Assembly: GCA_020846435.1 (NCBI GenBank) | Contig: JADLDY010000064.1 | Coordinates: 1-40,387 of the forward strand | Length of the DNA stretch: 40,387 bases | Source of the DNA: Deltaproteobacteria bacterium | GTDB taxonomy: Bacteria > Desulfobacterota > GWC2-55-46 | Reading direction: 5' to 3' | Shown: piece after piece, positions 12,670 to 40,387 of the stretch | Numbering within the stretch: position 1 is the first letter of the stretch | How the letters are laid out: each line of letters starts with the position of its first letter | The notes under the pieces: model-generated | The model's input: only the letters and a program-made list of their open reading frames with translations | What the model was told of the DNA's origin: nothing | Databases searched by the model: none | Translations under genes and position numbers: made by a program

Positions 12670-12798
12670 CCTCTAAAAATTGCTCTTTTTCCTGACCTCT
12701 GCGTCAGGTCGTAAATAAAAATGCTCACATATTCTCATATATGCTGCGCTTTTTATTTCCGCCCTTCCTTGACTTCAGAAAAAATATCTAATTTTTAG
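12670..12798 (-). repeat. Palindromic repeat family R2, copy A (leader of fbp)
   Basis: About 110 core bases match copy B (30534-30665) with roughly four differences when read on the minus strand. It folds as one long imperfect hairpin with CATAT/ATATG at the tip. It ends 40 bases before the fbp start codon, in the same orientation relative to the gene as copy B has to parA. A weak promoter (TTGTAA-N16-TAAGTT, minus strand) lies just upstream, so the repeat would make up most of the fbp leader. The remaining intergenic bases to 12858 show nothing else. Confidence 0.85.
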
Positions 12799-12858
12799 TG
12801 ACTGCCTTGAACTTATGAGGCGGAAAACCTGTTACAAAAAAAACAGCTCTCTCTCTTT

Positions 12859-16425: not shown

Positions 16426-16548
16426 CAGGCTGGTCAAAAAGCACCATATGCGAGGCGTCGAGGAGCGAGGAATGAGGCGTACTTTTTATGTACGCCGCAA
16501 AGACGAGCAACGAAGACAACGACGCAGATGGGCTTTTTCAACAGCCTG
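16426..16548. repeat. Palindromic repeat family R1, copy 2
   Basis: It begins at the base after the pyrE stop codon. CAGGCTG at the left pairs with CAGCCTG at the right, and the body (GAGGAATGAGGCGTAC...GTACGCCGCA, ...GCAGATGGG) closely matches copy 1. The outermost arms differ in sequence from copy 1 but remain complementary to each other. Confidence 0.82.
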
Positions 16549-23592: not shown

Positions 23593-23667
23593 TGGTGGGC
23601 GGTACAGGATTTGAACCTGTGACTTCCACCGTGTGAAGGTGGCACTCTGCCGCTGAGTTAACCGCCC
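23593..23667 (-). tRNA. tRNA-Val(CAC)
   Basis: On the minus strand the acceptor arms GGGCGGT and ACCGCCC pair, followed by A and an encoded CCA. The anticodon arm CCACC-TTCACAC-GGTGG has anticodon CAC (plus-strand bases 23633-23635), which reads GUG. The T arm contains GGTTCAAATCC. The length is 75 nt including CCA. Confidence 0.95.
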
Positions 23668-27622: not shown

Positions 27623-29512
27623 TTGTATTCCGGCAGATACGACATAATCGTCATAGGCGCGGGGCACGCCGGGTGTGAAGCGGCGTTAGCCGCGAGCCGC
27701 ACAGGGCTCTCAACGCTCATCGTCACGCAAAACCTCGACACCATCGGCCAGATGTCCTGCAACCCGGCCATCGGCGGGATCGCCAAGGGCCACCTCGTAA
27801 AGGAGATAGACGCGCTCGGCGGCGAGATGGCCCGGGCAATAGACGAGACCGCCATACAGATGAGGACCCTGAACGACAGCAAGGGCCCGGCTGTCCGGGC
27901 AACGCGCGCCCAGGCTGACAGGGCCCTTTACAGGGCGAGGATGAAGAGGGTCCTCGAGCACACCCCGGGCCTCCACCTGAGGCAGGCAACTATCGACTCT
28001 CTCCTTACGGAGAACAGGGCAGACGGCCGCCTGAAGGCTGCCGGCGTCAGGCTTTCAACCGGCGAAAAGTTCTCATCCAAAGCGGTCATAGTCACGACAG
28101 GCACGTTTTTAAAGGGTCTCATCCACATTGGCCTCGTCAACTTTCCCGGGGGCAGGGCAGGCTGTCCGGCAAGCTCTGGCCTTTCTGACTCTCTAATGTC
28201 CCTGGGGTTCTCTCTCGGCAGGATGAAGACAGGCACCTGCCCGAGACTTGACGCGCGCTCTATCGACTACTCGAAGACCATCATGCAGGAGCTCCAGAGG
28301 CCGGATGAGTTCAAGCCTTTTTCCTTCACCTCCGCCCCTTTCACAAGGGAGCAGGTCCCCTGCCACATTACCTATACGAATGAGGAGACTCACCGGGTCA
28401 TAAGAGAGAACCTCGGGAGCTCTCCATTATACAGCGGCGTCATTGAAGGCATCGGCCCGAGGTACTGCCCGTCCATCGAGGACAAAGTGGTGAAGTTCCC
28501 GGAGAGGACCAGACACCAGGTATTTCTCGAGCCTGAGGGGCTCGACACCGTCGAAGTCTACCCTAACGGACTGTCGACCTCATTGCCGATAGAAGCGCAG
28601 AGGCTCTTTTTGAAAACTATCCCCGGCCTCGAAAATGCCGAGATATTGAGGCCCGGCTACGCCATTGAGTACGATTATGTCGAGCCGACCCAGCTGGCGC
28701 TGACCCTTGAGACAAAGGCTGTTTCAGGGCTTTATCTTGCCGGCCAGATAAACGGCACATCAGGCTACGAGGAGGCCGCGGCCCAGGGACTTGTCGCCGG
28801 TATAAACGCCTCGCTCTCTTTGCGCGGCCTGCCGCCCCTTATCCTCGAGAGGTCTGACTCATACATCGGCGTCATGATAGACGACCTGGTAACGCTTGGC
28901 ACAAAAGAGCCGTACAGGATGTTTACCTCGAGGGCCGAGTACAGGCTGATACTGAGGGAAGAGAACGCTGACATGAGGCTTCGGGAAAAAGGCCATGGCG
29001 CCGGGCTTGTCAGCGATGACATTTACGCCAACTTTCTCAATAAAGTCAATAGAATCAAGGAGTTAGATGAGCTCATAGACTCGGAGAAGATAAACCCGAC
29101 AAAGGAAGTCAACAGCAGGCTCATGGAAAAAGGCGGCGTGGAGTTAAGAAAGTCCGTAACGCTCAGGGAGCTTCTCAGAAGGCAGGATATGACGCTCAAG
29201 GACCTGTTCTCGATTGTTGGACGCCCTTTTAATATCGACCTTGAGGCTGCCGAGGCCGTAGAGATAGAGACAAAGTACGAGGGCTATATAAAAAGGCAGC
29301 TTGAGGAGATCCAGCGTTTCAAAAAAATCGAGGAAATCCGCATACCTGAGCTGAATTTCAGCGAGGTGCAGGGCCTGTCGACCGAAATAAGGGAAAAACT
29401 TGAAAAAGTAAGACCAGCGTCGATCGGCCAGGCCAGCAGAATATCCGGCGTGACCCCGGCCGCCATCTCGATGCTCATGGTCCACCTCAAGAAGACCGGA
29501 GCGTACAGGTAA
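27623..29512 (+). CDS. mnmG: tRNA uridine-5-carboxymethylaminomethyl modification enzyme MnmG
   Basis: MnmG is the FAD partner of MnmE. The dinucleotide fold is [19 protein letters not shown] (about 8-26), followed by [25 protein letters not shown]-like [14 protein letters not shown] and [15 protein letters not shown]. The C-terminal helical domain binds MnmE and tRNA. The start is TTG, with AAAAGGA about 10 bases before it. The 629-residue length is normal. rsmG follows after 69 bases, the usual gidA-gidB order near origins. Confidence 0.96.
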
Positions 29513-29536
29513 GGCCGCGGAGTGATTTAATAAAAT

Positions 29537-29553
29537 TCCCCCTTTCTAAAGGG
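29537..29553. repeat. CCCCTTT/AAAGGGG palindrome before rsmG
   Basis: CCCCCTTT-CT-AAAGGGG lies in the mnmG-rsmG spacer and resembles the elements at 17400-17418 and 17498-17516. Confidence 0.5.
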
Positions 29554-29581
29554 GAAGATTGGACGAAAAACGCCAAAAACC

Positions 29582-30235
29582 ATGACAGACACGCAACTCA
29601 TTGAAATTCTTAGGAAAGGCTCCCTTGAGCTCGGCCTCAGCCTCACCGACAGCCAGACAGGGGCCTTCATCAAATATCTAAGGGAGCTCCAGGCCTGGAA
29701 CAAGAAAATCAACCTCACCTCCATAACCGACGGAAAAGAGATAATTATCAAGCACTTCCTCGACTCCCTCACACCTGTTCGCCTTCTTTCAGGCGTCCAG
29801 ACCCTCCTTGATATAGGCTCTGGCGCTGGGTTTCCCGGCCTGCCACTTAAAATAGCCATTCCAGCCCTGAAAGTGACCATGCTCGACACAGTCGAAAAAA
29901 AAGTCCACTTCATACGCCACATGATAAGGACGCTCGATCTTGAGGGGGCAAAAGCCCTCTCAGGCAGGGTAGAGTCGCCAGAGCTCATCGAGAGCCTCGC
30001 CTCTTCCTTTGATTGCGTCACCTCAAGGGCCTTTACCGAACTCAAGGCTTTTGTTACCCTCGCAAGGCCGTATGTCAGGCAGGGGGGCATGCTTCTGGCG
30101 ATGAAAGGCCCGGCTGTTGAGGGTGAATTAAAAGAAATGGGCCATGTAGAGGGCTTTTCAGAGCCTGAGGTCCACCACATGGATGTCCCTTTCTCGGACA
30201 GGACCACCAGCCTTGTCATAATGAGACGGCTCTGA
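29582..30235 (+). CDS. rsmG: 16S rRNA (guanine527-N7)-methyltransferase RsmG
   Basis: RsmG methylates N7 of G527 in the 16S rRNA 530 loop. SAM motif I is LLDIGSGAGFPGLPLKIA (about 78-95); before it, AWNKKINLTSITD is the family signature. The length of 217 is normal. The ATG has no clear ribosome-binding site, possibly because of coupling with mnmG. The first parS site begins one base after its stop codon. Confidence 0.95.
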   Translation: MTDTQLIEILRKGSLELGLSLTDSQTGAFIKYLRELQAWNKKINLTSITDGKEIIIKHFLDSLTPVRLLSGVQTLLDIGSGAGFPGLPLKIAIPALKVTMLDTVEKKVHFIRHMIRTLDLEGAKALSGRVESPELIESLASSFDCVTSRAFTELKAFVTLARPYVRQGGMLLAMKGPAVEGELKEMGHVEGFSEPEVHHMDVPFSDRTTSLVIMRRL

Positions 30236-30236
30236 G

Positions 30237-30252
30237 TGTTCCACGTGGAACA
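30237..30252. promoter_or_regulatory. parS centromere site 1
   Basis: The perfect palindrome TGTTCCACGTGGAACA matches the conserved ParB-binding parS sequence. It begins one base after the rsmG stop codon. Confidence 0.93.
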
Positions 30253-30284
30253 TCTTGCTTTTGTATTGTCCTTAACAAACACCC

Positions 30285-30403
30285 GTAACAGGGCGGAGCG
30301 CGCATAAGGGAGGAAGGGTGCCCGACGGGGCTGTGGGAACGAAGCGACCTAAGGGGCTCGGTTCACGGGTGGGAGAGGAGGAAAGCGCGCAGAGCCCTGC
30401 TAC
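30285..30403. repeat. Palindromic element between the two parS sites
   Basis: The ends GTAACAGGGC (30285-30294) and GCCCTGCTAC (30394-30403) are complementary with one mismatch, and GCGCGC arms lie inside them. GCGGC-GTAA-GCCGC (30408-30421) forms a separate hairpin directly after. No ORF is visible. The 452-base gap 30236-30687 is filled by parS sites, this element, the parA promoter and repeat R2. Confidence 0.6.
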
Positions 30404-30453
30404 AAAAGCGGCGTAAGCCGCGCTACAAGGTTTTTTGACCGAATTCCCTTAAA

Positions 30454-30469
30454 TGTTCCACGTGGAACA
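30454..30469. promoter_or_regulatory. parS centromere site 2
   Basis: TGTTCCACGTGGAACA, identical to site 1 and 201 bases from it, about 20 bases upstream of the parA promoter. Confidence 0.93.
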
Positions 30470-30517: not shown

Positions 30518-30533
30518 TTAAACACAAAAGCTG

Positions 30534-30665
30534 CCTCTAAAAAACAGCTATTTTTTCTGAAGTCAAGGAAGGGCGGAAATAAAAAGCGTAGCATATATGA
30601 CAATATGTGAGCATTTTTATTTACGCCCTGACGCAGAGGTCAGGAAAAAGAGCGATTTTTAGAGG
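30534..30665 (+). repeat. Palindromic repeat family R2, copy B (leader of parA)
   Basis: CCTCTAAAAA at the left and TTTTTAGAGG at the right are perfect 10-bp inverted ends, and most of the element pairs along its length (GGGCG-GAAATAAAAA with ATTTTTATTT-ACGCCC), closing on CATAT/ATATG. It ends 22 bases before the parA ATG and would form nearly all of the parA leader. Copy A lies at 12670-12798. Confidence 0.85.
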
Positions 30666-38754: not shown

Positions 38755-39858
38755 TCAAAGCCTCATCGGCATTATTATGTAAGTGTAGTCCTCTCCGTTC
38801 GTGGGCCTCAACACTCCGGGGCTGAGCGGGTCTTTAAGAGAGATCCTTACCTTCTCGTCGTTCAGGGCTTCCAGCATGTCGACAAAGTATCTCGCGTTGA
38901 AAGCTATCTCAAGTTCTCCGAACGGGTACTCCACGTCAACCTCTTCAGTCGCTTCCCCTATGTCAGGGCTCGAGGATGAAAGCACGAGCTTCGAGTTTGA
39001 GAAACTGAACTTCACGCCCTTTATCTTGTCTGTTGAAAGGAGAGAGACCCTCTTGAGGGAAGACAGGAGGTCAGCCCTTACGGCTATGGCGTCCTTATCG
39101 TTATCCTTCGGTATGACCCTCGTATAATCAGGGAACTCGCCCTCGAGGAGCCTGATCATTATGACGGTATTTTCCCTTTTCATGACGGCGTTCTTCTGGG
39201 TGATACCGAGAAGGAAAGAGCCTCCCTTCTCATCGAGCACCTTTTTCATCTCCATGACGCCCTTCCTCGGAAGAAGGACCCCTTCCTTGCTGCCGGAGTC
39301 TATGGAGACGCCTTCGCGCGTTATGAGGGCGAGCCTGTGGCCATCGGTCGCGACCATCTTAAGTCTTCCAGAAGAGCTTTCAAGGAGAAAGCCGTTTATG
39401 TTGTACCTTGTCTCGTCGGTCGATACCGCAAACGAGGTCTTTTCTATAAGCTCCCTGAAGACCGCCGAGTCCATCTCCTTCATGGCGCTCTCGTCTATGG
39501 CAGGGAATACCGGGAAGTCTTTGGAAGGAAGGCCCATGATATTGAACCTTGCCTTTCCAGCCTTGAGAGTAACCTTGTCGTCCTTGCCTGAAGAGATGTC
39601 CATGGTCTCCCCGGGGAGCTCTTTGGCTATCTCGAAGAGCTTTCTGGCATTTACCGTTACTGAACCGTCTTCAATGACTCTGGCAGGGGACGAGTCTTTT
39701 ATGAAGACCTCAAGGTCGGTCGCCATTATGTTTATTTTTCCGTCAGAGACGTCAAGAAGGACGTTCGCGAGAATAGGCATTGTATTCCTTTTTTCCACTA
39801 TGCCCTGGATCCTCTGGAGGACCTTTATGAAATCTGATTTCTCGATTGTGAACTTCAT
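38755..39858 (-). CDS. dnaN: DNA polymerase III beta sliding clamp
   Basis: The 367-residue clamp starts MKFTIEKSDFIKVLQRIQGIVEKR after an AAAGGAG-rich site. Three similar domains are visible; ATDGHRLALI (domain 2) and the C-terminus YTYIIMPMRL are family signatures. It holds the polymerase on DNA and binds partners through its hydrophobic pocket. It follows dnaA in the same direction, with 268 bases between them that appear to contain origin elements. Confidence 0.97.
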   Translation of the reverse strand: MKFTIEKSDFIKVLQRIQGIVEKRNTMPILANVLLDVSDGKINIMATDLEVFIKDSSPARVIEDGSVTVNARKLFEIAKELPGETMDISSGKDDKVTLKAGKARFNIMGLPSKDFPVFPAIDESAMKEMDSAVFRELIEKTSFAVSTDETRYNINGFLLESSSGRLKMVATDGHRLALITREGVSIDSGSKEGVLLPRKGVMEMKKVLDEKGGSFLLGITQKNAVMKRENTVIMIRLLEGEFPDYTRVIPKDNDKDAIAVRADLLSSLKRVSLLSTDKIKGVKFSFSNSKLVLSSSSPDIGEATEEVDVEYPFGELEIAFNARYFVDMLEALNDEKVRISLKDPLSPGVLRPTNGEDYTYIIMPMRL

Positions 39859-39880
39859 CCTTCTTTCTCCTTTGTATTAT

Positions 39881-40080
39881 TTAAAAGAAGTAGTAGATAG
39901 CAGTAGGGCCTGTTGAGATGTTGATAAGCCTTCAATCATCCGCAACCATTGAGTTTAAGGGCGCCAGAGCGTGTTGATAAACTCAGCCGTCTGCCAACAC
40001 TTCGCACAGCTTCCTTTTTTAATCCACACCCGGGCCTGTTCTATCCACTTTAAAATGCTCCGTCCAACAGCTTATGAACA
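39881..40080. other. Candidate origin of replication (oriC unwinding region)
   Basis: DnaA-box-like sites lie at 39919-39927 and 39972-39980 (TTATCAACA on the minus strand), 40020-40028 (TAATCCACA) and 40072-40080 (TTATGAACA). Left of the first box is a GC cluster GGGCC (39906-39910), then trinucleotides read 3'-GAT-GAC-GAT-A-GAT-GAT-GAA-GAA-5' (39906 down to about 39884), then an AT-rich stretch (39871-39885). Box, GC cluster, DnaA-trio and AT-rich DNA in this order, with boxes nearer dnaA and unwinding DNA nearer dnaN, match the basal unwinding system described for Bacillus subtilis. Confidence 0.62.
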
Positions 40081-40126
40081 GGGTACGGCGCGAGCCTGTT
40101 GGCAAATGGCACAAGTAGCCGGTTTG

Positions 40127-40387
40127 TCACTTCAAACCGAGATTTTGCCTCAGGGATCTCAAGGCCTGCCTCATCTCGGGGTCTTCCTTTAATTCGCGCT
40201 CTATTTTCCTGCACGCGTGTATAGCCGTCGAGTGGTCCTTGCCGCCGAAGGAAGAGCCTATCTCCGGGTATGAAAAGCCGCCGAACTCCCTTGACATGTA
40301 CATGGCTATCTGGCGGGGCAGGGCGATGTTCCTCTGCCTCTTTTTGCTCTTTATGTCGGAGAACTTGATGTCGTAATACGACGAGAC
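40127..40387 (-). CDS. dnaA: Chromosomal replication initiator DnaA (3' end only)
   Basis: The last 86 codons are in the window; the rest lies beyond the right edge. It is the DNA-binding domain IV: IALPRQIAMYMSREF, then FSYPEIGSSFGGKDHSTAIH, the DnaA signature that contacts the DnaA box, followed by CRKIERELKEDPEMRQALRSL. The frame is open to the window edge. Confidence 0.95.
   Translation of the reverse strand, partial: VSSYYDIKFSDIKSKKRQRNIALPRQIAMYMSREFGGFSYPEIGSSFGGKDHSTAIHACRKIERELKEDPEMRQALRSLRQNLGLK

Follow-up and report, generated by a model that had tools for sequence, protein, structure and literature searches.

A box-and-trio module between dnaA and dnaN as the probable unwinding half of the chromosome origin in a deltaproteobacterium

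Does the spacer between dnaA and dnaN hold the site at which this deltaproteobacterium begins to unwind its chromosome, and does that site follow a known plan? The window, that is the whole stretch of 40,387 nucleotides analysed here, is an entire contig (C71) whose right end shares 127 bp with a second contig, C40, on which the remainder of dnaA lies. The spacer, its parts and the flanking genes are as follows:

38755-39858, minus strand: dnaN, DNA polymerase III beta clamp
39859-40126, read from dnaA to dnaN on the minus strand: dnaA-dnaN spacer, 268 bp
39867-39887, minus strand: AT-rich DNA, probable unwinding or loading stretch
39888-39896, minus strand: second trio block CTA CTA CTT
39897, minus strand: single base T, which shifts the trio register by +1
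39898-39906, minus strand: first DnaA-trio block CTA CTG CTA (3'-GAT GAC GAT-5' on the bound strand)
39907-39910, minus strand: GC cluster GGCC in the interval between box and trios, 4 nt and G/C-rich in most relatives
39911-39919, minus strand: weaker tandem box ATCTCAACA, with a one-base overlap with the main box
39919-39927, minus strand: main DnaA-box TTATCAACA of the unwinding module, a perfect match in the role of B. subtilis box 6
40127-40387, minus strand: 3' end of dnaA (domain IV; Bac_DnaA_C, 7e-27), with the stop at 40127

From dnaA to dnaN the sequence reads TTATCAACA-TCTCAACA-GGCC-CTACTGCTA-T-CTACTACTT-CTTTTAAATAATACAAAGGAG, followed by dnaN. The preliminary description had proposed that boxes, a GC cluster, GAT/GAC-type trios and AT-rich DNA follow one another here in the same order and direction as in B. 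subtilis, with the boxes on the dnaA side and unwinding on the dnaN side, and the layout bears this out. It had also described the boxes as mostly non-canonical; both perfect sites indeed read TTATCAACA, and TTATCCACA was not found among the eight box sites of the spacer. As for the run of trios, CTA/CTG trios are present but they are not continuous, since the T at 39897 puts the tract out of register past the third trio. The trios and the AT-rich DNA lie 48 bp ahead of dnaN. The 30-mer of lowest stability in the spacer (39870-39899) ranks among the 0.05% least stable in the window and shares positions with both the second trio block and the AT-rich run. We consider the spacer very probably to be that half of the chromosome origin (oriC) where unwinding takes place, with a module of the basal unwinding system (BUS) type.

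According to the published definition, a BUS comprises a DnaA-box with at most two mismatches to TTATCCACA, a distance of 0-16 bp from box to trio with a peak at 10-13, at least three consecutive trios with a central A on the bound strand and, optionally, a second tandem box with at most four mismatches and a gap of at most 3 bp (PMC8287927). The main box TTATCAACA has one mismatch to TTATCCACA, the distance from box to trio is 12 bp here, within the published peak, and likewise in most relatives, and exactly three trios stand in register, followed by the +1 slip and three more. The second box ATCTCAACA, whose counterpart in close relatives is ATATCAACA, has three mismatches to TTATCCACA and a 1-bp overlap with the first box instead of a gap. 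This overlap and the restriction of strict register to three trios are points against reading the spacer as an oriC with a BUS.

Layout, uniqueness, conservation, fixed spacing, box clustering, skew and conserved DnaA residues were all computed here. The spacer contains eight sites with at most two mismatches to TTATC[A/C]ACA, two of them perfect; in 268-bp windows along the contig the mean is 0.94 and the maximum of eight is the spacer itself. For sites with at most one mismatch the spacer has four against a mean of 0.10, and its box counts were reached in none of 2000 dinucleotide shuffles. The box cluster is richer here than elsewhere, as expected of a bacterial oriC. Three of the 14 perfect boxes in the closed genome G008 and four of 23 in G023 are located at dnaA-dnaN.

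The permissive published BUS rule is passed by 13% of shuffled spacers and a stricter rule by 0.25%, and therefore it is the conservation across genomes that carries the argument. The pattern TTATMAACA-N12-YTACTRCT occurs once in the organism's own 2.4-Mb genome and, with 14 relatives, in 15 of the 59 genomes searched, among which the reversed control gave no match. All matches with a mapped dnaN lie directly upstream of it, and a second match in G018 adjoins a dnaN fragment. A slightly wider pattern was found in four of 395 genomes of the phylum, all from the family of the source genome, with two matches for the control. More loosely, the layout recurs in the family, order and class of the source organism: the 12-bp distance was kept in 26 upstream regions with a looser pattern, and a permissive search assigned a BUS-like layout to 44 of 47 regions, with wrong placement in some. 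Among three genomes of the same genus 39 of 46 bases are identical in the BUS compared with 93 of 200 in the upstream spacer. The preliminary description had named loss of the trio tract in close relatives as evidence against it; instead, the tract and its 12-bp distance from the box are kept in relatives whose spacers have otherwise diverged. The element is absent from three Nitrospirae loci (L015, L016, L037) with a very short dnaA-dnaN gap. Divergent second dnaN-like genes with 34-50% identity to the DnaN of the window were seen in G012 (L143), G027 (L141) and G033 (C318).

Boxes and conserved DNA directly upstream of dnaN could also form an operator or leader through which DnaA controls dnaN transcription, with the origin located elsewhere. 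DnaA does regulate transcription at its boxes. Nevertheless, the distance from the trios to dnaN varies from 34 to 281 bp whereas that from box to trios is mostly 12 bp, a scan of the spacer gave no sigma-70-like promoter, we know of no role of trios in transcription, and the skew turns near the spacer in three genomes. Such an operator is thus a very unlikely explanation of the conserved elements. The largest of these distances comes from G011 (L073), where more than 200 bp of extra DNA separate the trio tract from dnaN and the unwinding module is about 281 bp away from the gene.

GC skew was computed on stretches of partly sampled genomes. A skew minimum away from the spacer had been named as a further point that would speak against the proposed origin, and here the outcome was mixed. 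The cumulative minimum lies 3-4 kb from dnaN in G001, about 8 kb in G023 and about 10 kb in the organism's own genome (C40 plus window), where it forms a shallow trough at about 30,070 of the window. In contrast, the closed genome G008, sampled at 42%, has a flat skew from 20 to 100 kb and a best two-arm fit at about 130 kb, about 100 kb off dnaN at 28 kb and 6-7 log units better. At this sampling the skew does not place the G008 origin sharply, even with gene direction separated; the fitted terminus at 1.32-1.38 Mb lies nearly opposite dnaN. The preference of the G008 fit for 130 kb is a point against the oriC reading, and so is the own-genome minimum, which is nearer to parA and parS than to the spacer. 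Two parS-like sites are found between rsmG and parA:

30237-30252, no strand assigned: second parS-like palindrome TGTTCCACGTGGAACA
30454-30469, no strand assigned: parS-like palindrome TGTTCCACGTGGAACA, about 9.5 kb from the spacer, an origin-proximal marker outside the unwinding module

The skew minimum and the two palindromes at 30,237-30,469 could suggest that the true origin is the rsmG-parA region near 30.2-30.5 kb. parS, however, normally marks origin-proximal DNA and not the start site, and the region has no box within one mismatch. Moreover, G008 and G023 carry TGTTCCACGTGGAACA roughly 30 kb away from dnaN (31 kb in G023), and in G023 the skew minimum is separated from dnaN by 8 kb and from parS by 40 kb. 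We rejected this region as the origin on the missing boxes and the G023 positions, and regard it as an extremely unlikely start site. A chance match of the motif order to a degenerate rule, for which the 13% of shuffled spacers would speak, is contradicted by uniqueness, cross-genome conservation and the fixed distal spacing and has next to no probability.

Some further elements were observed in the window. A 139-nt repeat is present in two inverted copies (30527-30665 and 12670-12808, 92% alike), the repeat overlaps the called start of the parA frame, and the genome holds roughly 20 to 30 more copies, complete or partial. It has a weak self-match on the other strand and therefore may be a palindromic mobile or REP-like element. 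A 57-nt direct repeat (1955-2011 and 16431-16487, 84% alike) ends in ATGAGGCGTACTTTTT or GTGAGGCGTACTTTTT. An Rfam search of the window gave nothing beyond one tRNA:

23593-23667, minus strand: tRNA-Val (cac)

The DnaA protein, read over the two contigs, has 454 aa, and its best solved match is PDB 8btg (E 1.6e-135), in our reading the B. subtilis complex of DnaA with the BUS described in PMC10721633. With the trio-binding residues of B. subtilis DnaA taken from that study (PMC10721633), the alignment to 8btg showed that most of them, namely E183, N187, I190, R202, K222, E223 and E228, are kept together with the arginine finger, while I193V and N196Q differ. Changes in the recognition helix do not go along with the altered box: KDHST also occurs in relatives whose boxes are TTTTCCACA.

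By homology with B. subtilis we infer binding, unwinding, looping and use as an origin. In this mechanism domain IV of DnaA would bind the tandem boxes at 39927-39911, and bound DnaA would load more DnaA-ATP across the GGCC cluster onto a single strand of the CTA/CTG trios via domain III. The resulting filament would capture the trio bases and open the AT-rich DNA beside dnaN for helicase loading. Looping and dnaA autoregulation are the likely functions of the distal boxes, which are phased and start at 53 bp, and of a cluster of three boxes upstream of dnaA. The distal boxes of the spacer are:

39972-39980, minus strand: distal box TTATCAACA, oriented like the unwinding box and exactly 53 bp upstream of it
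40020-40028, plus strand: distal box TAATCCACA, oriented opposite to the unwinding box, at a distance of 101 bp
40072-40080, plus strand: distal box TTATGAACA, oriented opposite to the unwinding box, at a distance of 153 bp

Counting from the unwinding box, 20 of 40 genomes have a distal box in the same direction, at 53 bp in 13 and at 54 bp in seven, and 20 of 40 have one in the opposite direction at 72 or 73 bp. In B. subtilis a distal box is functional from 44 bp outward on one helical face over three turns, and the 53-54 bp found here correspond approximately to its 55-bp position, one helical turn past the 44-bp minimum (PMC6669920). The natural fixed spacing agrees with the helical phasing seen in the B. 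subtilis constructs.

The three-box cluster is located on C40, some 100 bp upstream of where dnaA probably starts (C40:83474), and reads TTATCAACA-TC-TGTGTATAA-CCC-TGTGAATAA; its boxes are also given as TTATCAACA, TTATACACA and TTATTCACA, with gaps of 2 and 3 bp. The unit or two of its boxes recur in six relatives (L003, L004, L005, L007, L010, L012). Box clusters thus flank dnaA on both sides, in the spacer and on C40, which points to a likely bipartite origin like those of B. subtilis and C. difficile (PMC7561715); its two parts may be joined by looping. A pair of TTATCCACA sites on C40 near 29 kb was dropped as it lies inside a long, membrane-protein-like coding frame (28706-30178).

As far as can be judged from its sequence, the origin is ordinary in kind and built on the known Bacillus-type plan. 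It is alike in position, order and direction to the incC BUS of B. subtilis between dnaA and dnaN, and tandem boxes, GC step, trios and AT-rich DNA are common to both; the boxes here are TTATCAACA instead of TTATCCACA, the second box overlaps the first, and the trio tract slips one base after the third trio. The origin of H. pylori differs in box sequence and gene context. It is bipartite, as the present one probably is, with two box regions flanking dnaA and trios beside a box pair (PMC8235120, PMC7561715). In C. difficile oriC1 lies upstream of dnaA and oriC2 between dnaA and dnaN, so that clusters occur on both sides, and only the dnaA-dnaN part has a clear trio tract, as here (PMC7561715). 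Its trios (CTACTACTATTACTACTA) stand in one register, unlike the slipped tract described here (PMC7561715), and its unwinding was shown by experiment whereas ours is predicted from sequence.

Three features go beyond the preliminary description, namely the slip in trio register, the constant spacing of the distal boxes and the box cluster upstream of dnaA on the other contig. The second trio block is one base out of register with the first, and among 37 genomes scored its register was +1 in 20, +0 in nine, +2 in none and unclear in eight; shuffles gave about two genomes at each register. Left out of this count were seven relatives mis-set by the automatic BUS finder, namely G037, G035 and G038 and, with regard to the frame, G011, G018, G034 and G058; these seven were set by eye or are unlabelled on the tree. 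On the DnaN tree the register state changes at least seven times by parsimony, of which well-supported branches force only one. Because the labels were set partly by eye and the relatives are not independent, we treat the slip as a lead and not as a result. In the order of the source organism the tract may often consist of two blocks with a one-base offset (3+1+3, period 10 between CTACTA units) kept by selection, with +1 and +0 allowed and +2 not, which we regard as possible rather than probable.

Among the papers searched, none names both DnaA-trios and Deltaproteobacteria, and the spacers assembled here form an aligned, many-genome BUS collection from an uncultured deltaproteobacterial lineage. 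If the offset is real, the DnaA filament would have to flip one base out, or skip it, where two units of three trios join, and the uninterrupted three-base lattice seen in the B. subtilis structure contains no such step. How strictly DnaA keeps to three-base steps can be tested directly on this slip.
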